Assembly (NCBI GenBank): GCA_004151065.3
Contig: NWUY0304739108.1
Coordinates: 1 to 23,963, forward strand
DNA length: 23,963 nucleotides
Direction of reading: 5' to 3'
Origin: Larix sibirica
Taxonomy: Eukaryota; Streptophyta; Pinopsida; Pinales; Pinaceae
Translations under genes and position numbers: made by a program
The notes under the pieces: generated by a model
What the model was told of the DNA's origin: nothing
The model's database searches: none
The model's input: only the letters and a program-made list of their open reading frames with translations
Part shown: positions 885-22,730 of the stretch, one piece after another
Layout: each line of letters starts with the position of its first letter
How positions within the stretch are numbered: position 1 is the first letter of the stretch

Positions 885-1035
885 CAAAGATCTGGATCCA
901 GTGGCGATTGATGGCGCTAGTGAAGCAGCACCACCAGCAGTTGAATCCATTGATCCATAAGCATAAGCATCAAGGGCATAGGCACGGGCAAGGGCATCAA
1001 AGTAAGTAACGGAAGCACCAGCAACTCAAAAGTGG
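885..1035 (-). repeat. outlying fragment of the Gly/Ala/Tyr-rich coding-like repeat family
   Basis: On the plus strand this patch shows the same triplet vocabulary as the big array at 5.5-11 kb (CCA, GCA, TAA and GTTGAA in phase). Read on the minus strand in the matching frame it is open over the whole patch and gives a small-residue protein-like sequence with segments such as ARAYALDAYAYGS and STAGGAAS. A stop lies just before it on the minus strand, near 1036. It is about 4.5 kb from the main array, so it is either a separate seeding of the family or a piece moved by recombination. Membership rests on composition, phase and short motifs only, not on a long alignment. Confidence 0.45.
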
Positions 1036-3989: not shown

Positions 3990-5107
3990 CTTTGATCTCC
4001 TTTCTGTCTCACCGCTTGAGTTCTTCCCCAATACTCGCTTTCGTTTCCCTTAGCTTAGCTTCTTGCTCTGATAGGTTTACTTTCGTAAACGGTTGGGGGG
4101 GTGTAGTGGGATTGGGGGGCTCCAAGTCCTATCGAAGGCTGAGGTGGGGCCTGAGGATTAGAAGTAGATGCAATGGCACCTATGACCCCATCGACAGCAT
4201 GGGAGGCTCCCAGGGTATCAGAGCGGGAATAACCGACGCGAGGGGCATCAGGTAACACAGTGTAAAGGTAACCAGATTGAGCGTAAATCAAGTCGTACTG
4301 TTGGGCAAGCATAATAGCTTCCTCTTCGGTTCGGGGTCATTCTGACGCTACATCCTTAGCGATGATTGGAATAAGGGACTTGAGGAACCAATCAAGGAAA
4401 AGGGAGTCATCAAGCTTATTTTTACACAAGCTTATTTACCAACGCCACTCGTGGATATGGTCCGTGATATGAGTGGAAATATTCTGTCAACAGGAAAAAA
4501 GGATTTTGAGGCATTCGTCGTAGCGAACAGGGGGTTGGAAGAAGTTCAGAAAGACCGTAGCAAGAGAAACAAACGTGGCATGCGTGTTGGGGGGCTGCTC
4601 AATGTACCACTTGGCAGCGACACCGGTGAGGGTATGCTTAAAAAGTCTAAGCCTAATGGAGTCATCAGCTATGCTGTTAGAGGAACACCATAGGTGAAAC
4701 GACATAACGTGGTTACAAGGGTCTTCTCTAGCACGACCTTCGAACTTGGTAATGTCCGAGGGAAGCTTGGTGGGCATGGGTGGCCAAGCAGGATTATGCT
4801 CGATAGAATCGTTGGTCAGGCGAGTTAGATCAGGGAGATTCAAACTAGCCATGAAAGGGAGACTATGGACAACATACGTGTTGTGACCGGGTGGTAACTG
4901 GGTATGGTTTATATAACCACCTCCAAACTGATGTCCTCCACTAGGATTAGCAATAAATCTAGGATTAGGATTAGGCATATGTCCCATATTAGGGTTAGGG
5001 AAATAGCCAGTATTGGGGAATTGGCCTGAACCAATTTGGGTGGAACTCCCCATCCCACTGTGAGGAAAGGTACCCATGTGAGAGTGAGGAAAAGGACCAA
5101 AACCCAT
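3990..5107 (-). pseudogene. gag: Ty3/gypsy retrotransposon gag pseudogene
   Basis: The minus strand reads in a single frame from 5107 to about 4058, roughly 350 codons, with three internal stops: TGA at 4489-4487, TAA at 4438-4436 and TGA at 4339-4337. No frameshift is needed. The first about 90 residues are rich in Gly, Pro, Asn and Met. A Pro/Trp-rich linker (WPPMPTKLPSDITKFEG) then leads into the plant retrotransposon gag domain, with FHLWCSSNSIADDSIRLRLF, LTGVAAKWYIE, DHIHEWR and the late segment TEEEAIMLAQQYDLIYAQSG. This arrangement matches the gag of plant gypsy elements as I know the family; it forms the capsid-like particle in which the RNA is reverse transcribed. No zinc knuckle (CCHC) follows and no LTR was seen. 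Such nuclear elements are often found inserted in plant mitochondrial genomes. The stops make it non-functional. Confidence 0.85.
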
Positions 5108-5354
5108 ACTAAATAGAAGCCAATCTATGTACAGTTAATCCTTTGACCTCTTCTTACTTAGCTTGCCTAGCAAAAATGAGATTTTGTACTTCTTTAGATA
5201 CCCAACAAAGCTTTTTGAAATTCCCGCTTATCGGTTGGGGCATTAAATCTACATTTCTTACTGGCTACTTCCTTCCATCCTCGCTCATCTCATAAGAAAA
5301 AGCCTTCGGAAAAGAGGAGTAATTATCTTACTTGGCTGCCCTCGGAAAAAGAGA
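5108..5354. other. spacer between gag relic and repeat arrays
   Basis: No gene. A CTCGGAAAAAGA-type motif near 5305-5352 is present in two variant copies. The frame of the gag relic stays open for several codons above its first ATG, so the relic's true upstream limit may lie here. Confidence 0.35.
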
Positions 5355-5475
5355 AAAAGTCGGTGAATGCGGAATTCTCTTATCAGTGAATGCAAGGTTT
5401 TTCTCTTAAATGCTTATCGGGGAATGCAATGTATCTATCTTTATCCTTATCGGTGAATGCAAGGTTTTGGTCTAA
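5355..5475 (+). repeat. degenerate tandem repeat with core CGGTGAATGCAAGG
   Basis: Four variant copies of a TTATCGGTGAATGCAAGG core begin near 5361, 5384, 5418 and 5451, with spacings of about 23, 34 and 33 bases. Tails are variants of TTTTTCTCTTA. The copies differ at several positions, so the array is old or has evolved by repeated slippage. It adjoins the large coding-like repeat array but does not share its vocabulary. Confidence 0.7.
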
Positions 5476-5479
5476 AAGC

Positions 5480-5905
5480 AGAAGTTGAACCCGGATTCCC
5501 AGCATCCTCATTTGAATAAGCCTCATTTCCCAGCCTCATCATTATTCCCAACAACAAAAGGAGGACCGGAAAAAGCAGCAGTTAAACAAGCATTTCCATT
5601 AGCGGTTTCACCTGGATCATTTCAATAAGCAGTTGAACCAGCACGACCAGCAACATCCCCAAGATCATTTGAATTAGCAATTGAAGTAAAAGATTACCAG
5701 CTTCCTCAGTTCCCGGAGCACCAACTCCAGATTTAATCAATAAACAGTTCCATCAGAAGTTGAAACGGGATTACCAGCCTAAGTTCCCGGGATCATTTCC
5801 AGCAGCCTCAAGATCAGGAGCACTACAACCAGCAATTCCAAGATCATCCCCATCATTAGTTGAAATGAAATTATTTCCAGCATAAGTTGAAGGTCATAAG
5901 TATAA
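5480..5905 (-). repeat. coding-like triplet-phased repeat array, block 1
   Basis: On the plus strand this block is built from triplets such as CCA, GCA, TAA, TTC, GTT and GAA kept in phase. In the matching minus-strand frame it reads as small-residue repeats: STYAGNNFIST, AGNDPG, AGNPVSTSDGT, APGTEEAGN, and GSTAY followed by a stop and NDPGETANGNACL. A few single-base frame slips and in-frame stops show that it is not a working gene. The GST...NDPG motif (plus strand about 5603-5640) and the AGNPVST motif (5758-5778) recur in blocks 2, 4 and 5, which ties the blocks together. I do not recognise the parent protein. Confidence 0.7.
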
Positions 5906-6880
5906 GGCCCAATCACCGGGTATTGTAATGGGGCAATAGTAGAAAGACCGGAAAGACTCAGTGGGAGGCCCAGTTACCTTTCCAATCACGAGTGTGGAGT
6001 GGTCAACCCCGCAGCTGCTTACTTAAAACGGGGACAGCTTACCTCATAAAATCCGCTTACTGCCTCCCCAACACGCCTTGGTGATACTCGGCCGCAGCAA
6101 CCTTGTTGACACAAACAAAATAGGCCCGAAATTTCTCACGCAGAACCACGGCTGTCGAAGTCAAAGCCTAATTAAGTGTTTATTGGCCTACGTAGGAGAT
6201 CAAGGGTGCCAAAGCCATAAGCCTTTTTCTTTTCGTCTATCCTGACTGCCTGAAAATCGGCCTGACTAAGCTGACCAGCCCTGAGAAATGCATTACCTAA
6301 CCTAACTGGATCCGTGTTCCCAGCTGATATAAGACCAGCTGATATGAGCAGTAGCAGCCAAGATAATACCTAAGACCCGTATCAGATACAAACGCCGTAC
6401 CATGTACAATAAATACCGTAAGGGCTAAATATTACTAGGCCATTTTTTTCATTTGGCCCCTTTCAAAAATTGGGAAACTAAGAAGAGCTAATCCCTTGGA
6501 CTTACTTCATTAGGGGTTAAGCAAATTCTGTAGTATTCCCGGCTTGTGTTTGTGTCCTATCAAAAGTGTTAATAAATCCTATTCTGAGGTGTAGTTCAAT
6601 ATGTAGTGTGTAAATATATTGAAATGCTCAATTGATTCCTATCCTAGTGTCCAGTCTTCCCAGGCTCAAGGGGCGATTAACCCTAATGTAAGGCAGCAAA
6701 AGCAAGGCAATGTAAACCATTTATGGTCCTGACTATTTTTCTTGTTCCTTCCCCGCCGCCCTGCCTGTATAATCCTGGTACCGGCCCTTCCCGGAGATTC
6801 TTATTTTATATGTCAAACTTGTTGGTCTACGGGATTCAATGATCCGTGCCAAGATTTGAAGGTGTAAGGTCCAGCTTAAT
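5906..6880. other. non-repetitive spacer between array blocks 1 and 2
   Basis: About 1 kb without a supportable gene. Apart from short pieces at the edges it does not show the triplet vocabulary of the flanking blocks, and it does not resemble the spacer segments at 8190-8375 and 9919-10105. It may be an insertion that split an originally continuous array, or simply the edge between two expansions. Confidence 0.45.
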
Positions 6881-6881
6881 T

Positions 6882-8189
6882 CTAACCAGGAGCAGTTTCC
6901 AGAGCGGCATTACCTGCCTCAGTTCCAGGATCATTTCCTGGATCATTCAAATAAGAAGCAGCAGTTGAACCAGTTTTTGAATAAACAGTTGAAGGAGCAT
7001 CCCCAGCAGGATCTGCAGTAGGGGGGCCAGAATAAGCAGCAGCATCACCGGTTCCCGTAGGAGTTCCAGCATAAACATAATTTAAAGCAGCCTCATTGGC
7101 ACCAGTTGAATCTTCATTCCCATAATAAGTTCCGAGAGCAGCCGTATAAGCATTCCCGGCCTCATTTGCCATAGCATTTCCAATATATTTTGAAGGAGAA
7201 ATCCCTCATTTCTTGACCCAGCAGCCTTCTCAGAAGCACCAGTTTCACTGGCTTTTTCATTTCCAGGAGCAGCCCCATATGCACCGGTTGAACCATCAAT
7301 ATTATTATTATTCCCAACCCCCGGATCACCAGTTTCACCGGCTTCTTCCTTATTCCCGGCAGCATTTCCATAAGCTGAGGAGCAGCACTAAAACTAGTAT
7401 AATTTCCAGCCGTTCCCGGAGCAGTTCCATAAGCATAAGTTGAACCGGGATCCCCAGCTTAATTAGAACCAGCAGAGCCAGGCTCAGCAAAAGCAGCCTC
7501 AGTTCCAGGATCATTTTCATAAGCAGCAGCAGTTGAACCAGAGACACTAGGACTACCAGCATACCCGGTGGAACCAACGTCATAAGTTGAACCATCACTA
7601 AGTTGAACAAGCATTCAAATGAGCAGTTAAAGCGTCATTCCCAGCATCCCCATAAGCACGAGTCTAACCAGGAGAATATCCATAAGCAGTTGAAGTCGCA
7701 GCAGTATCACCAGCAGAAGTCCCGGCACAAGCAATCCCAGGTTCATTCCCAGCAACACAAGTTGAACCAACATAAATGTAAGAAGTCCCCGCCCGAGGAG
7801 CAGCAGAAGCATAACGACCAGCAGCCTCAGCAGCACAAGAAGTCCCAGATAACCAGTTGAGCCAACTGAATTCCTAGGAGCATTTGAACTCGCAGCATTC
7901 CCAGTCTAATTCCAATAAGCGCCAGTTTAACCAGGCTAAATTCCATGATAAGTTCCAAGAACATTTCCATCAGCAGTCCCGCCAGCAACACTACTACTCC
8001 CAGCATCCCAAGCATAACCAGGTTAAGCAGCACAACCAGAGGAGGGAGGAGGATAGGGTAAGGATATTCATAAGCAGCACAACCAGCATCTCCGGCAGCA
8101 CTATTCCCAGCAGTCCCAGCGTAATGAGAACAAGAAGAACCAGGCCAAGCATAAAAATGCGCATCCCATAAAAAGTGAAATTCGCGGCA
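6882..8189 (-). repeat. coding-like triplet-phased repeat array, block 2
   Basis: The minus-strand frame 7172-6882 is open for 96 codons and made almost only of A, G, T, S, N, D, P, E and Y. It contains AGNAYTAALGTYYGNED, TGSTAASYLNDPG and NDPGTEAGNAA. All four glycine codons are used, so the similarity to other blocks is not just copied DNA triplets. After a one-base slip near 7350, the neighbouring piece (about 7350-7605) reads GSTGYAGSPS and SGSTAAAYENDPGTEAA with one in-frame stop. Further on (7827-8130) the same style continues with more stops (YAWDAGSSSVAGGTADGN). Other frames here are open only because of composition: the leucine-rich minus frame has T in most second codon positions, and the Gln/His/Lys plus frame has A there. 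None is annotated as a gene. Confidence 0.75.
7716..7850 (+). repeat. higher-order duplicate within the array (partner 9008-9142)
   Basis: This stretch of block 2 matches 9008-9142 in block 3 at a constant offset of 1,292 bases. The best part is a run around AAGCAATCCCAGGTTCATTC followed by CCAACATAAA and GAGGAGCAGCAGAAGCATAA. The match is much closer than the general repeat similarity, so it marks a specific segmental duplication and not just shared vocabulary. Confidence 0.7.
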
Positions 8190-8375
8190 TTCCAAGCATA
8201 ACCGGTCCCAGGATAAATTCTAAAAACGTGTGGAGAGGGGTAGTTTAATATAAATTCATCTATCGTGGGCCTGTGTCGAGTAGCAAGGTTCCACCGCGTT
8301 CTATTTCGTGCATTTGAAAATAGGGAAGTCGATGCCTGATAGCCTGTAATTTCATTATCCAGTTCTATCGGTCCC
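8190..8375 (-). pseudogene. non-repetitive segment, copy A, embedded in the coding-like array
   Basis: This segment lacks the triplet repeats but is 78% identical over its core, by hand count, to 9919-10105, at a constant offset of 1,729 bases. On the minus strand it is open in the array's frame, and enters block 2 without a break at YPGTGYAWNAANF. Core features include NARNRTRW, TRHRPTID, ILNYPSPHV and YAWN. In another minus frame the sequence above it, 8490-8360, is also partly open, and in the array frame two adjacent stops lie near 8395. I do not recognise the domain. It could be a former unique domain of a repeat protein, or a spacer trapped during amplification. Confidence 0.6.
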
Positions 8376-8489
8376 GTAAATCCGTTCTATTAAACCCAGC
8401 TCCCTCCGTTCCGGAATTCCATCCCTAAAAGTAAGGCAGGAAACAAAAAGGTCTTGGGCGAATCCCCAGAGCTCAACAGGTTCTGAGCA
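8376..8489. other. segment between copy A and array block 3
   Basis: Unlike the flanks this piece shows no clear triplet repeat. On the minus strand in the array frame it reads through FLFPALLLGMEF and then meets two adjacent stops near 8395. No counterpart is visible at the equivalent place beside copy B, so it may have been lost there or inserted here. Confidence 0.35.
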
Positions 8490-9007
8490 ATAAATAAAGA
8501 GCATCCAGGAGGAGTTAGACCAAAAGTGTCATAAGCAGTTCCAGTATAAAAAGTTTAACTCGCATAATTCCCAGGATAAGTGGACCCAAGAGCATCCCCC
8601 TAAGCACTAGTTGAAGCAGGACCAGTGTTATCAGCACGACCAGCAGCTCCAGCAGCACTAGTTTAAGCAGTTCCCAGAGCACTCCCAGCATAATTTCCAT
8701 AAGCACTTGAACTGGCATAATTATTCCGAGCATTAAAACTCGTAGCACAAGCAGTTTCGGCGGCACAACCGGTTTGTAAAAAATCTCCAAGAGCATTTGG
8801 CAGAGCAGCACAAGTCGTCCCATCATGATAAGTTTCCACGGGATTCCCAGCATAAACAGTGGAACCGGGAGCATAAGAATGATTATTTCCAGGAGAAATT
8901 GAAGCAGTATTTGTGAATTCCCAAAATAACCGGAAGTATTAGTCCCAGCATAAGCATAATTCCCGGTATAATTCTAAGGAGCATTATAACCAGGAGAACC
9001 AAGCTAA

Positions 9008-9142
9008 GCAGCACCAGCACAAGCAATCCCAGGTTCATTCCCAGCAACACCAGTTGAACCAACATAAATTGAATAAGTCCCCGCGCGAGGAGCAGCAGAA
9101 GCATAAAAACAATCAGCCCAATCAGCACCAGTTGAAGTCAAA
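9008..9142 (+). repeat. higher-order duplicate within the array (partner 7716-7850)
   Basis: Partner of 7716-7850, offset 1,292 bases. The offset differs from the 1,729 bases separating copies A and B of the non-repetitive segment, so the two duplications cannot both come from one simple tandem copy without later insertions or deletions. Confidence 0.7.
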
Positions 9143-9540
9143 AATTCCTAGGATAAGTGGCCCCAACAGCATCCCCAGGAGCAGTATCCAGAGCATCCCG
9201 ATGATTCGCAGTTAAAGCAGGAGCATCCGCATAAGCACCAGTGGAACTGGCCTCCTAATGACCATAAGCAGTTTAATCAGCAGCAACCTAAAATCTGATT
9301 TCCAGCAAGCCGAGTAGCACAAGCAGTTGCACCAGCAAAATTCCCAGCATAAAAAGTATAACTGGCAGCATAAGAATGTGTATTCCCAGGATAAATTGAA
9401 CCAGCACAATAAGAAGCACCAGTATAACGGGCTTGATTCTAATTCCTGGCAGCATGACTCCCAGCAGTTCCAGCATAATTGGAAGCAGGAGCAGTTTACC
9501 CAAAAGAATAATGATTATTCCCAGGTTCATTCCCAGCATA

Positions 9541-9650
9541 AGCTGAACCGGATAATTCATTCTAAACATAAGCAGTTTCATCAGCACCAATTTAACTAGC
9601 TTCATTCCTGGCAGCACGAGTGTTATCAGCACGACCAGCAGCCCCAGCGA
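9541..9650 (+). repeat. higher-order duplicate within the array (partner 10274-10383)
   Basis: Matches 10274-10383 at a constant offset of 733 bases. The exact 19-base run GAACCGGATAATTCATTCT is at 9545-9563 and 10278-10296. The shared end GACCAGCAGCCCCAGC follows about 70 bases later in both. A related piece (GTGTTATCAGCACGACCAGC) also occurs near 8641-8660. Confidence 0.75.
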
Positions 9651-9918
9651 GGAACTTAATCATTCCCGGCAGCAGCATGAAAAGCAGCCTTTGTATAAGC
9701 ACTGGTGTAACCGGCCTCCTCTCCTCATTCCCAACAGAAAAGTATTCCCAGGCCTAGCGGCATTATAAGCAGCATCCCGAGGAGCACCAGTCCGGGCATA
9801 ATTCTGATTCCCAGCGTTATAATTCGCAGCCTTAGTCTCATCAGTTTCACCGACAAAGGCAGCACAAGTGGTCCCAGGAAAAGCAGCATAAAAACGGGCA
9901 TAATTTGCATAAGCATGG

Positions 9919-10105
9919 TTCCAAGCATAATCGTTCCCAGTGTAAATTATCAAAACGTGTGAAAATGGGGTGTTTAATATAACTAAATTGATCGTGGGCC
10001 TGGTTCGAGTAGGAATGTGCCGCCGCGGTCTCTATCGTGCATTTGTATTAAGGCAAGTTGATGGCTGAGAGCATGTCTGTAACTTCAACCCAATCCGATC
10101 AGGTG
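9919..10105 (-). pseudogene. non-repetitive segment, copy B, embedded in the coding-like array
   Basis: Diverged copy of 8190-8375 with no gaps over a 144-base core (about 32 differences by hand count). In the array's minus frame it reads STCLNTNAR, a TAG stop, then RPRRHIPTRTRPTIN, ILN, HV and IYTGNDYAWN, and passes straight into block 3. Of 48 aligned codons 27 encode the same residue as copy A, shared features being NAR, TRxRPTI, ILN, HV and YAWN. Only six of the differing codons are synonymous, so I see no sign of protein selection after the duplication. Upstream on the minus strand the frame stays open through GTASTPAPDRIG into block 4. Confidence 0.6.
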
Positions 10106-10975
10106 CTGGTGTTGAAGCAGTTCCCATAGAAGTTCCATGATAAGTGAGTATAACTGGCATAATTCGGAAGGGCAGTGGACCCGTAAGTAGTTGCAGCACC
10201 AGTATAACCGAAAGCATAACCGGGCCAAAGCATCTGAATTCCCAAGATGACGAGGATTCAAAAAATAAGCGCAAGTGGAACCGGATAATTCATTCTGTAA
10301 AGAACTGGTTTAATAAGCACCAAAGTAACTAGGCTAAATCCTGGCAGCAAAAGTGTTCTAAGCATGACCAGCAGCCCCAGCAGCGGCATAAGTGTAAAAT
10401 CCCGCAGTTCCAGTCTAATTCTAACCAGGAGCAGTATAACTCGCATCCCCATGATTCGCAGTTGACCCAGCAGCATCCCCATAATAATAAGTTGGCGGAG
10501 CAGTACCAGCCTGATGCCCAGCGGCATAAGAACAAGCAGCATAACCAGGCCAAGCAGCATTCCTCGCAGCCCCATAAGCACCAGTCTACTAAGGATAATA
10601 TAAATAAGCAGTTTCTAGAGCAGTTAAAGCATAATTCTCAGCATCATTATTATTCCTCGCAGCAGCATAACCATAAGCAGTGGAACTCGCAGCATTAAAA
10701 GCAGCAAAGTAAGGTAAGATTGGCCCAGGAGTACCAGGACAAGCAGTAAAATTCTTTCCAGCATTACCAGTAGAATCGACTTAATTCCCGAGGTAATTAG
10801 CATAATAAGTTGAAGTAAAAGCATTCCCAGGAGAAGTTCCAGCATCATCAGTTGAAACGGGATTCCCAGCTTCCTAAGTTCCAGGAGAATTTAAAGCAAC
10901 ACCAGTGGAAACAACATAAATTTCACCAGTTTAACCAACGTAAATTAAAGAGGTCATCATTCCCGAGCGCATAAT
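10106..10975 (-). repeat. coding-like triplet-phased repeat array, block 4
   Basis: Same triplet vocabulary as blocks 1-3. The minus strand from about 10870 reads EAGNPVSTDDAGTSPGNAF, STYYANYLGN, a stop, then DSTGNAGKNFTACPGTPGP and SSTAYGYAAARN. Near 10240-10105 it reads FGYTGAATTYGSTALPNY before a slip near 10130. The AGNPVST motif lies at 10850-10870 on the plus strand. The block ends abruptly near 10975, followed by unrelated sequence. Plus-strand frames rich in Gln, His, Lys and Asn (for example 10462-10698) are by-products of the repeat phase. Confidence 0.7.
10274..10383 (+). repeat. higher-order duplicate within the array (partner 9541-9650)
   Basis: Partner of 9541-9650 at an offset of 733 bases, without visible gaps across the 110 bases. 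It links block 4 to block 3. Confidence 0.75.
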
Positions 10976-11445
10976 AGAAATGCTGCCATATATATAGAAG
11001 GGGCCCCGGAAGGTTAAGGAAGTTGGTGACTGGGTCCTAAGGTCTTTGTCGGGGGTGAAGACATATGAACGGACTGCACCGCTTGGATTGACTCAGAATT
11101 CTAATTGGACCGAGACAGTATCATCTAGGCGGGCGGCAGAAGGGGGAATGGCCTAGGCACGGGCGACGAAATGCGGGGATCCGGAGCAAGCGATTCACTG
11201 ATAGCTTCAGCGGGAATTAGCAATTAGCAATTCGGCCCTCACAACTTGAATCGTCTCCAAATAAATCACAACTTTTCCAAAACTATAGTCGGAGCGGAGC
11301 GGCCCCGACCCCTTGGGGGTCTAAAGAATGATCGGACAGCTACCCTACTTATTCCCTTCGGATGCGTCTCACCCCTTTATATAGTAGGGCCCCCCGGGCC
11401 AACTTGATCCTCTTCCGAGGAGAGCCTATCCATATATATTCCACC

Positions 11446-16600: not shown

Positions 16601-16804
16601 TAACTTGAAGCTTAGAAAGGGCAAGATAAGCTTGAACTTGAATAAATGGTGAACTGAAAGCAATAAGATGGTGGGATTAAAGCTTAAAATGGGGTAACTT
16701 AACCTTCCCCTTATTTTTTTTAGCAGCAAAGAAGAAGAAAGTAGTTCCTGTCTTCCTGGCTTACCCAGTATAATAAACATCAATGAAATAGGAATCCGTC
16801 CAAA
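16601..16804. other. AAGCTT-rich spacer
   Basis: Contains several AAAGCTTNAA-like motifs near 16590-16690 that continue the TTAAAGC theme of the preceding cluster. The 71-codon minus-strand frame here has no recognised domain. Confidence 0.4.
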
Positions 16805-17345
16805 CATAAGATCCCGGATTTCCAGCTGAACCAGAAGTCGCAGTAGTTCCAGCCTCTACAGTTGAACCAACATCCCCAGAAGCACTAGTTTTATCAACAC
16901 CCGAAGGAGCTTTCTTTCTAGCTAAAGTTGGACCAGTTGTTTAACGAGTATCATCTGCTTTATTAGAATCAGTATCAGTTCTAGTTGAACAAACATCTTG
17001 AAATTAGCCTATTTATTTACTATTAGTAGTATTTCCTGCAAATGAAGATGGAGTACTTACCCCAATTAGCTTTAAGTAGTTAAACTAACAGCTTTCCCAG
17101 CGTATGGTTAAACAAATAAAGTAGGCCCTTCTTAACAGCACTGGTTGAACCAGTCTTACCAGCCTTTTTAGTTGAACCTACTGCAGTTACATCATAAGTA
17201 GAAACGGGATTACCAGCTTTAGCATTCCTAGCAGTCAAAGTATCAGTTGACCCAGCATTCCCATTAGCACCAGTAGAAGGAGTATTACCAGATTGCCAGC
17301 CTCAGTACCAATAGCCTTTCCACCATTTGAACCAGCCTTGCGCTA
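16805..17345 (-). repeat. coding-like triplet-phased repeat array, block 5
   Basis: A detached block of the family at 5.5-11 kb. In the minus frame the lower part reads SGVDKTSASGDVGSTVEAG and TATSGSAGNPGS, with one stop further upstream. The upper part reads TGANGNAGSTDTLTARNAK, AGNPVSTYDVTAVGSTKKAG and KTGSTSAVKK. The AGNPVST motif (17197-17217 on the plus strand) matches blocks 1 and 4 closely. The composition is richer in Lys, Val and Thr than blocks 2-4. Since it keeps readable segments of 20-40 codons, it may be nearer the ancestral sequence or represent a different subfamily. Confidence 0.65.
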
Positions 17346-17850: not shown

Positions 17851-20740
17851 GACTATGGCTTTCCGTAGATTCTGGTCTCATAGGGCTGAAGAAAGAGTTT
17901 CCCATCACAGGATACCCGAGTCACCATCACAACTTGATGATCCACCCAGTATGGTAGGTACTACGCACGGTACGGCACGGAATGACCATGTGAGTGAGGC
18001 ACACTGCCTACTGATCACTACTTGCTTATTAAAAAGGGAAGTCTCTTGCTTACTTACGCTAAACAGATGCCATTGGGATGTTATAACCTCAAATCCACAG
18101 TAAAAACTACCTGCTTTGAAATTGCTGCTTGCTTGCGAATTGGCTTTACGAAACACTGAACGAGAGAGATGAATTCCCCATGGGTCCCCACCAGAAGAGA
18201 TTGAAACAAGCTGTTAACATACGTGATTTCAAGATGTTCCCCAAGTTGAAACCATACACGCGAAATAAACCCCATCATATGCAATTGATTTTTCCGAGTT
18301 GATACCGATCGAGACACGACGTTCACTGAAAGCACGAAGTTATCGAATCACCCAGTTAGTCATCTTCACACACAGTGGAAACTCATGCTGTTGTTCACCT
18401 GGAGTACACTGGTAAACCTATGTATGGCCGTTTAAATACCCATTCCCAACAGATAGCTGTTCAACCTATTCTAATACCCAGTTGTTCCCAACAGATATAA
18501 GCTGTAAAACTCAAGTCCAAAGTTAACATCACATCCATTCGTTGAACCACCAGATGCGAGAGGAGATATTATGCTTCGCTTTACTTACGATATTACGCTT
18601 TGCTCAACTAATCCGACCTACCGATTGAAACCCCCCATCCATTGGCCCTAAACTGCGAACCTGAGGACCATACTTCTTAGGAACTTTCCACCTGAATAAA
18701 GAACCAAATTGCCTTAAGAACCAAGTTGACAACCCTATAACCTTTCCACTCTACAATATCAATATTATGTTTGCATTAAATAAATTCCCAGGTCCCAGGG
18801 TTCGACAGAAGGAGAGCTCGACTAAAAGGAGAGGCGTATAATTACTCTTTATTTATAGGCGCTTTCAGTCTTGCATTTTAGACTTGAAAACGCGTATACG
18901 AAGGTGTGAGAATCAATAGGTCTAGTTTTGCCCTTTCTAAGCCACCTTGAAGCCCAAATGGACGCTCTGCAGCAAGAAGCCATTCAGGGGGTACTACACG
19001 GATGAGCTCAAAGCAGAAAAAGAGCGCCTGCAAACCCAACTGGAAGAACGTGCAACTCAGGAATAAACCCTAAGGAACCCATTAATGGTAAAGATCAAAG
19101 TACCCAAAGTTCCCAACAGACGATAGAAATGTACCTGTTAAACCATACCCCGTTACAGCCATACCCGGGAGAGAAGTTACCCGTCGTTTCTACCAAGAGA
19201 GAATCTGGACCCCGCCATATGGGTGAATGGCTAGAAGTGTTGCTAGAGTAAGTGAGTGAGTTGACTATGCACTTGTAGGGCAAGGAGCGGGCGAATAACA
19301 TGGCTATGTGATGGCTATGCGCTGTTTACGACGGGTGTATGATACGGGGCTATATTTTCATTACCTTCACATCAAGAGCGTTAAGACAGCTTGTTATATA
19401 CGAGTCAACAAGTGAGGTTCATACACCATACACAGAAAGACATTCATATCTGGTCAGGTAGGGTCTCACGCTAGTCAGGTAGAACAGTAAGGGAAGGGAG
19501 GTGGGTGATCCTATTGTCGTGTGGTGGTTTGTTCCATAATTGGTAGGCAGGTTGTCGTAGGCCCTCTCTGTTGGTGGGCAGATTTTTTGTGGGTCAGTCA
19601 TTATTGGTGGGATGGTAAAGTCCTGCTGTTCCTAGGCTGGTGGGAATTTTTGAACTAAAGCAATATGCTTTATGGCATATTCTTCTCTATGTCTATGACT
19701 GGCTACTGCTATGACTGGCGCTATATGACTGCATGTCCTTGTGTGCTCTATGTGCTGGTGCTGTAGGAACTATTGTTCCATATATGTAAGTCCCGTCCCG
19801 GGGTTCATTTTAGTACTTCTTCTTTCTCCCAGCTCGGAATCAATCTAGCAAGCCCGCAATCAAATCAAGCAAGCCCTTAAAATATAAGTAGTAAGGCTGT
19901 AGAATCCATAGGGCAGTTCCCATGATATCTGCTTAAGTGCTAGCTGTATAGAGAGAATAAGGCGCAGTTCAAAACGTGCCTGCTAAAGGTTCTGGCTTTA
20001 GTTCCTAAATCCGGGGCAGTTCTGAGGATCCCACACCATGACTGAGCTGTCCAACTGCGACTGCGGTAAGGATGAGGGAATTAGAATCTGTGCCGTGCCA
20101 TGCCATCCAGTAATTGGGGGAGCAAGGTACGAAAGTCCTCATCGAATCGACCATCCATCCCATTCACCCGTGCCTTGTTTTCTGTAATTGATCTCCCCGC
20201 TCGCTACCCATGTCTGTTTCTATTGATAATATACCGCCTTTTTTTCTGTCACCCCGAGCATTCCTTCATCCAGAAGTGTAATCAAAGCATATACTGGCAA
20301 TGCTGTCTTCATGAATCAATCATATCTGGGGGTTAATCCCGGCTCGAACATGAGCAATAGTAAACCCCCTAAGCGCATTCATGAAGGCAAGTGGTGACCC
20401 GCCCGTGCACTGACTACTCTACTGTACAAAGTTAAAGCCTGTGAGCCAGTTGGTAAAAGGTCTAGGTGGTTGGTAGAATGGTCACTAAGATTCAAGCAAG
20501 CAATCTAACCATCCCTACCAATAGCTATTCTCGCGAGCTAACTACTCGTCTACGTTGAGATATAAATACTTGTATTGAACTTAACCACTTTAATCAAAGT
20601 GAACAAGCCATAAAGCATAAAGTAAAGACCCCATTATTGTCTTACTCATCTTTGTAAGTATAAGGTGCGTAAGACAGACATACTTTTTTATTGATTGAGG
20701 CCCCTAAGAAACATTTATCGAAGGCAGGCAGCGATATAAC
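17851..20740. other. long non-coding stretch, no supportable gene
   Basis: Nearly 2.9 kb without a gene I can support. Overlapping frames at 17855-18103 (plus) and 17905-18156 and 18081-18335 (minus) have no recognised domain. At about 18960-19065 the plus strand gives a short charged stretch ending DELKAEKERLQTQLEER, which would form a coiled coil. It is only about 30 codons long and ends at a stop, so I do not call it a gene. Short repeats occur at 18425-18510 (variants of ACCCAGTTGTTCCCAACAGATA) and 19680-19760 (TATGACTGGC variants). Confidence 0.45.
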
Positions 20741-22139: not shown

Positions 22140-22730
22140 CGTACCTTACCTCCTAAGTTCCCAAGATTGAGAAAGGCTCGGCCAAACAAATAGGTGAGAT
22201 ATGTCCCAGAAGACTTAATATAAGGCAAGTAGAGTAAAGGTTCATAGCTCTCGTGTCTACCCACGATTCCTGGCTTCATCAATTGGTAAGGACAGACAGC
22301 ACTCCATCGACTAGGGTGAAGGCAATAGGTTAGGCATCACTCAATATCTTAGGTTGAAGGGAGTAAGAAAGGAAGTAAAAGGTTGGTTGATCCGGTCCTT
22401 ATAAGAGAGTGAATAGTGGTACCTCCTAAGTGCATTCATTCCTCAAGTGGTATAGGGCTAAATGTCTAGCTCTTAAGGTGGGCAGGTAGTAAGGTAGTAA
22501 GTCAACACATACATCAGTAAGGGAGAAGGATAAGTTTGTTTCATGCCATCCCATCCCCGGTCTGTCTATAGTTGGTACCTCCTAAGATTCCTGAAGTAAG
22601 TGGTCTAGGGCTACTAGGTCTAGGTCTGAAGGTGGGATAGGTCGTAGGCACTTCAGTAAAGGTTGTTGTTTCATGCCATCCAATCCCAATTCCAATCCCG
22701 GGTCTATAGTTGATACCTCCTAAGGGATAT
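22140..22730 (+). repeat. degenerate tandem array, spacings about 140-156 bp, TACCTCCTAAG core
   Basis: The core T(G)GTACCTCCTAAG or a variant lies at about 22146, 22417, 22573 and 22711. The two clearest units (22417-22572 and 22573-22710) share, in order, TACCTCCTAAG, a TCCT(C/G)AAG stretch, AGTGGT-TAGGGCTA, GTCTAG, AAGGTGGG, CAGTAA, TTGTTTCATGCCATCC and CCCGGTCT. Variant units may extend to about 23400 (GTACCTACCTTCCTC near 23400). Frames on either strand here have no recognised domain. Confidence 0.7.

Follow-up and report, generated by a model that had tools for sequence, protein, structure and literature searches.

The origin of most intergenic DNA in plant mitochondria is not known. 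Among the dispersed families in these genomes, the Bpu short interspersed elements of Cycas mitochondria reportedly consist of a short unit of fixed length. In the Platycladus mitogenome, as given in the available part of its published description, repeats shorter than 100 bp are the commonest class (6,332 of 7,634), and 75.6% of the genome is listed as undefined (PMC9174605). The subject of this report is a window (that is, the whole stretch of DNA analysed) of 23,963 nucleotides from Larix sibirica (assembly GCA_004151065.3, 618 Mb in 19,862 contigs; contig NWUY0304739108.1, forward strand), in which four long blocks are composed of short words that keep a three-base register. With a probability of roughly 0.6, these triplet-phased blocks belong to a dispersed, non-coding, low-complexity repeat family, likely mitochondrial, that would be held in register by in-phase copying of short patches. 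No description of a triplet-phased repeat family was found in the literature searched, which mostly excluded subscription papers.

Within the four blocks, the frequency of base matches is 0.31-0.35 at distances that are multiples of three and 0.21-0.24 at other distances, whereas in the gaps between blocks and in the flanks the two differ by at most 0.01. The three-base signal was compared with 200 dinucleotide shuffles per block (z-scores given below), and the phase contrast of 0.07-0.14 is 3.5 to 6.8 times that of the cox1 gene of the same organism (0.020). Read in register on the minus strand, the blocks give a protein-like translation dominated by small residues (A 20%, G 14%, T 12%, S 10%, N 7%, and Y 6% over a pooled register of 6,513 codons), hereafter the small-residue frame. 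The block limits come from a four-state phase model for which the window served as training data; it counts 19 register slips in 4,067 bp:

5476-5892, minus strand: triplet-phased block 1, small-residue register; 417 bp, 4 slips, 216 bits (z = 12.7 for 5480-5905)
6872-8216, minus strand: triplet-phased block 2; 1345 bp, 6 slips, 663 bits (z = 37.7 for 6882-8189)
8505-9945, minus strand: triplet-phased block 3; 1441 bp, 6 slips, 713 bits (z = 41.6 for 8490-9918)
10113-10976, minus strand: triplet-phased block 4; 864 bp, 3 slips, 403 bits (z = 27.2 for 10106-10975)

On 239,630 shuffled bases (one strand), the same model called just one block, of 24 bits, and nothing exceeded 45 bits, while four coding phage loci scored 22-47 bits, so low model scores can also be obtained from ordinary genes. 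For the pooled analyses, blocks were required to exceed both 45 bits and 25 codons. The register is not that of a tandem array: neither Tandem Repeats Finder, which reported one 24-bp, two-copy array inside the blocks, nor triplet correlation revealed a fixed period of head-to-tail units. Moreover, the mutual information between triplets in the window vanishes by a lag of six triplets, so that no long repeat unit exists.

An earlier note on this DNA had claimed triplet-phased blocks at four places, with GST, NDPGTEA, and AGNPVST motifs recurring in a minus frame, and had contrasted them with the noncoding tandem repeats usual in plant mitochondrial genomes. The observations on the blocks stand: the model places them close to where the note had put them, the three-base signal is present, and translation of the minus strand does show the motifs repeatedly. 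No match to a known satellite was obtained. The description was nevertheless incomplete, since it missed three further blocks (923-1023, 16722-16997, and 17136-17336), the homology of the spacers between blocks, and the copies that occur elsewhere in both orientations.

A DNA search of the assembly with 6882-8189 matched 35 other contigs, each at E <= 5e-6 (a hand count, with 40 of 49 candidates scored), although contigs with identical matches, such as C19330, C19331, and C19589, may be duplicates within this count. Twenty regions on 19 contigs were drawn from a set of 50 places and scanned, and 18 of the 20 contained at least one block above the threshold. Together with the window and locus L005, they yielded 42 blocks, which total 18,942 bp with 113 slips and are spread over 20 of the 26 sources; two of the 42 lie in L029, which duplicates L025. 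The family is thus a dispersed repeat, present at many separate places when counted by contig. Blocks occur in both orientations, and the orientation flips within 40 bp at L021 and L024. Among eight contigs chosen without regard to the pattern, two read N and the six that were readable, one of them partly masked, contained no block.

Some further observations concern the make-up of this family. A second wording of triplet-phased DNA was seen at L015 663-1204, L023 3889-4548, L026 2066-2626, and L031 4574-4827; it is weaker under the phase model, has 0 to 1 slips per block, and in L026, the only locus where it was read as DNA, uses words such as GGATCT and TATGCT. This wording suggests that the family has subfamilies. 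The duplicated loci mentioned above share a 5.2-kb stretch, inverted between the two contigs (L025 4003-9234 and L029 1-5227) and 98.3% identical. Pieces of blocks, 68 to 471 bp long, lie in AT-rich contigs (L005 1137-1607, L019 4543-4614, and L020 4715-4782). Such contigs are probably nuclear, and it is possible that these pieces represent mitochondrial DNA transferred to the nucleus.

The way in which the copies differ is informative about how the register might be kept. Between block copies, 21 of 37 gaps are multiples of three, compared with 12 of 78 in the flanks (Fisher p = 1.3e-5). AT-rich loci contribute 36 of these flank gaps; the remaining flanks give 6/42 (p = 1e-4; hand count), and 4/35 (p = 6e-5) once the double counts between L025 and L029 are also removed. 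With a looser cut-off, 37 of 68 block gaps at 68-84% identity have lengths divisible by three. When real block pieces were mutated neutrally and realigned identically, only 15-20% of the gaps were triplet gaps, so the aligner is not the source of the excess where the copies are truly homologous. The blocks also share patches of sequence: different block loci have 54 exact 18-mers in common, compared with simulated means of 5-14 (maximum 18; models of order 3-5), and 19 exact 21-mers, compared with about 1 (maximum 3). In contrast, stretches in which one triplet is repeated at least three times are fewer than in shuffled sequence (17 vs. 33.6, sd 5.5), which contradicts single-triplet slippage as the main engine. 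The suggestion in the earlier note that the repeat grows in three-base steps is therefore supported in part: it agrees with the triplet indels and is contradicted as regards slippage of single triplets.

Within the favoured explanation, the mechanism that we infer is copying of short patches by microhomology-dependent template switching or gene conversion. Among similar triplet-phased words, ends would anneal best in register, and as a result, each copied patch would gain or lose whole triplets. Words would in this way be rearranged with no constant period, and only ordinary point indels would break the register. For the intergenic DNA of plant mitochondria, inaccurate repair of breaks has been put forward as a theory (PMC7043297).

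The contigs that carry blocks are likely mitochondrial, judging from their composition and from elements that they have in common with a contig carrying cox1. The 17 loci above 41.5% GC have a mean CpG ratio of 0.62 and TG/CA ratios of 0.99/0.99, whereas the 13 loci at or below 40.5% GC have means of 0.44 and 1.18/1.15. Two loci of intermediate GC (L024 and L028) fall outside both means; the high-GC group includes the partly masked contig chosen without regard to the pattern (L033), and the low-GC group includes three loci with blocks (L005, L022, and L029) and two with short ones (L019 and L020). An intact cox1 of 523 aa is encoded on contig C19808 of the same assembly (locus L041, 526-2097). 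Its closest PDB entry is 7jro, which we take to be a plant enzyme, and several proline and serine residues at sites that are usually conserved may point to much RNA editing. The 2.7 kb behind cox1 have a GC content of 0.415, with CpG 0.62, TG 0.94, and CA 1.08. The neighbourhood of cox1 also matches window positions 20398-20459 (63 bp, 79%), and a profile of the spacer element found between the blocks, described below, matches weakly beside cox1 (E 5e-5). Outside the blocks, transitions and transversions number 237:361 (AT-rich loci included). In the available parts of published accounts, the corresponding figures are 422:686 for Arabidopsis mitochondria (PMC7056966) and 519:775 for Arabidopsis (the plastid of this species being listed there with identical figures), 315:282 for rice, and 204:89 for Ginkgo (PMC9222611); as these ratios vary, the observed one fits some plant mitochondria and not others.

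The chief rival to a non-coding repeat is a fossil gene. According to this explanation, the blocks are remnants of an undescribed minus-strand gene that coded for a low-complexity protein with abundant Ala, Gly, Thr, Ser, Asn, Tyr, Asp, and Pro and that multiplied in the mitochondrial genome and decayed. It accounts for the register and for the recurring peptide segments, among which SIYVGST and SGPPTA are found in different loci, and it agrees with the small-residue composition, the preference for indels in multiples of three, the avoidance of single-triplet runs, and a weak four-codon period (identical triplets at lag four are 1.29 times baseline). In-register stretches without stops reach 140 aa (L014), and stops are few in some blocks (L024, 1 vs. 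5.9 expected; L027, 0 vs. 2.7). Nonetheless, stops are not avoided overall in the small-residue frame, either in the window (35 observed vs. 33.0 expected from position-specific composition) or in the 42 pooled blocks (137 vs. 128.9), and other blocks are rich in them (L014, 11 vs. 6.9).

Divergence between paralogues also runs counter to what a gene would leave. In the 78 alignments kept (68-97% identity), sense positions 1, 2, and 3, i.e., the codon positions of the small-residue frame, differ at 161/858, 153/859, and 105/861 sites (0.188, 0.178, and 0.122; p = 3e-4 for all three, p = 0.65 for the first two). The third position, where wobble would be expected, is thus the least diverged, as it is in every identity band (67/589, 70/588, and 44/594 in pairs at 84-97.5%, p = 0.02), although barely so in the 20 closest pairs, at 90-97.5% (10/237 vs. 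12/234 at the second position). Since sense position 3 is 68% T, its low divergence may partly reflect the alignment of non-homologous units. The dependence between neighbouring bases (bias-corrected) is 0.081 bits between positions 1 and 2, 0.066 between 2 and 3, and 0.156 between 3 and the next 1. It is therefore strongest across the codon boundary, where cox1 has 0.007 bits and viral frames of at least 250 residues, taken from four contigs related to each other, have 0.003-0.021.

Nor did the search for relatives support a gene. In word-limited searches covering about 5.8 billion proteins, a 112-aa piece had 48 word-sharing candidates, none at E <= 1, and a profile built on 15 of a total of 45 pieces free of stops had 7,992, none at E <= 0.01. 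Pfam, NCBIfam, and the PDB gave no relative for the four, six, and one block pieces tried, respectively, and no long intact copy was seen among the loci read. Some other ideas were set aside. An exact pattern taken from the blocks matched four viral contigs in IMG/VR, within phage frames that we take for T4-like capsid genes; these are chance matches of small-residue, T-ending codons, and the contigs were used as the coding controls for base dependence. A changed genetic code had been prompted by the scarcity of TGA, which accounts for two stops in the window; pooled, TGA makes up 16 of 247 NGA triplets (0.06), and the frequency of T is 0.12 before GG, 0.13 before GT, 0.40 before AA, and 0.25 before AG, i.e., TGA is about half as common as its neighbours, and the idea was dropped. 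A second minus frame, of hydrophobic residues, has long open stretches, but over all pairs its third codon position (sense position 1) does not diverge significantly more than its first (0.188 vs. 0.178).

The evidence thus gives no support to a protein gene that is alive or only recently dead, and among the coding signs tested, triplet indels alone are clearly present. Nor do present-day signs support the fossil repeat-protein gene proposed in the earlier note: stops are at chance level, codon positions diverge unequally but with the supposed wobble position changing least, dependence peaks at the codon boundary, and no relatives were found. A protein-coding origin or seed long ago is possible, and the fossil-gene explanation as a whole appears unlikely, although it is the most probable of the rivals. 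In a related scenario, which we hold to be rather unlikely as well, pieces of an undescribed family of genes for low-complexity proteins would have been scattered over the whole of a large plant mitochondrial genome and would have gone on multiplying after their coding function was lost. As triplet-phased DNA would recombine best in register, the fragments might keep multiplying, and the three-base beat would have outlived the protein that made it.

Decayed triplet microsatellites, grown by single-triplet slippage, would account for a strict three-base register over hundreds of bases, and words of three to four triplets do exceed baseline at lags 1-4, in small numbers. The longest single-triplet run in the pooled blocks is a pure (AAT)10 within a block of L021 (3993-4169). 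However, in addition to the deficit of identical-triplet runs, a triplet is followed by itself at 0.81 times the baseline rate, and tandem structure inside the blocks amounts to the single two-copy array. Slippage as the main engine is contradicted; older, fully decayed slippage is possible, and the microsatellite explanation is, on balance, very improbable. That the family is instead a nuclear repeat or gene, and its contigs nuclear rather than organellar, is the least probable of all, for although short copies lie in AT-rich contigs (L003/L019 and L004/L020, and the 471-bp block in L005), a weak gag match lies at 4490-5134, and the loci scanned have no organelle RNA gene, most block loci have 41-46% GC without the TG/CA excess of the AT-rich loci, like the surroundings of cox1, none of the six readable pattern-blind contigs carries a block, and retroelement pieces, by reading of the translation, adjoin cox1 as well.

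Several points weigh against the dispersed, non-coding mitochondrial family favoured here. With respect to the compartment, the 5,000 bases read beside cox1 contain no block, and the mitochondrial location is for this reason something that we infer; furthermore, Rfam found nothing in the window (at the gathering threshold) or in 16 loci, and ARAGORN found no tRNA in the window or in 28 loci. With respect to coding, the 20 closest pairs (23/239, 12/234, and 10/237 at the three sense positions; p = 0.03 for all three, 0.08 for the first two) hint weakly that the hydrophobic minus frame may code, a signal that vanishes at 84-97.5%, and the dependence across the codon boundary could stem from a highly repetitive gene. 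The depth of decay hides the origin of the family. With respect to the mechanism, the gap counts rest on short low-complexity alignments in which some units may lack true homology, and of the six gaps in the pairs of highest similarity (84-97.5%), no more than three have a length divisible by three. Some local slippage does occur: at lags 1-4, repeats of words three and four triplets long reach 2 to 9 times baseline (5-9 cases each, partly due to one AAT run). Finally, these contigs also have exact 18-mers in common outside their blocks (29 vs. 0.2 modelled, in 138,902 bases). The sharing of patches is hence a general feature of the contigs, but per base compared, shared patches are denser in the blocks.

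Apart from the four main blocks, the window contains the following related features:

923-1023, minus strand: short outlying block; 101 bp, 51 bits
16722-16997, minus strand: outlying block; 276 bp, 72 bits (z = 22.4 for 16722-17336)
17136-17336, minus strand: outlying block; 201 bp, 88 bits (17184-17217 is 91% identical to 5745-5778 of block 1)
8190-8371, no strand assigned: spacer element that separates blocks 2 and 3, with its core at 8268-8360; a founding sequence of the spacer profile
9919-10111, no strand assigned: spacer element that separates blocks 3 and 4, with its core at 9997-10090; a founding sequence of the spacer profile
7722-7839, no strand assigned: internal unit duplicated at 9014-9131; 118 bp, gapless, 88.1% identity

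The two spacers are homologous (8190-8354 and 9919-10087, 77.5% identity over 169 bp). A profile built from three sequences, i.e., these two and one copy from L017, finds 11 copies of a core of approx. 94 bp in 5 of the 26 sources (two in the window, three in L017, two in L014, three in L016, and one in L018). A role of the spacer as a structured RNA was rejected: among ten copies, the consensus fold has no consensus pair, no Rfam family reaches the gathering threshold in the window, and a permissive Rfam scan of 8180-10120 gave one match (E 0.17), which lies outside the spacer. Elsewhere in the window, the open frame at 4490-5134 (minus strand, 215 aa) is the one with the weak match to a retrotransposon gag (Pfam E 0.035, below the cut-off); a tandem repeat (5379-5468, period 34, 2.7 copies) lies directly before block 1, and 22413-22586 and 22568-22724 form an overlapping, diverged duplication (66% identity).

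If the favoured explanation is correct, mitochondrial intergenic DNA could be traced in part to a non-coding repeat family with a codon-like register. The blocks would also be a warning that DNA lacking the usual marks of coding selection can have a three-base periodicity and can contain long open frames and protein-like motifs. Moreover, the preference for triplet indels offers a testable handle on the short-patch copying that may scramble plant mitochondrial genomes.

Compared with described systems, the blocks have the three-base periodicity of triplet microsatellites; unlike these, they show no excess of single-triplet runs and no fixed unit. With low-complexity repeat-protein genes and pseudogenes, they have in common the three-base register, the T-ending Ala, Gly, Thr, and Asn codons, and the triplet indels, but they differ in showing neither overall stop avoidance nor a third-position excess in the small-residue frame and in having their strongest dependence across the codon boundary. 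Like the Bpu elements, they form a dispersed family, probably likewise of a mitochondrial lineage; they extend for up to 1.4 kb without a unit, which sets them apart from the Bpu unit with its reportedly fixed length. The small dispersed repeats of seed-plant mitochondria are classed by length, and in the available part of the source no triplet register is described for them (PMC9174605), unlike for the blocks; what the two share is that both consist of many short intergenic copies.

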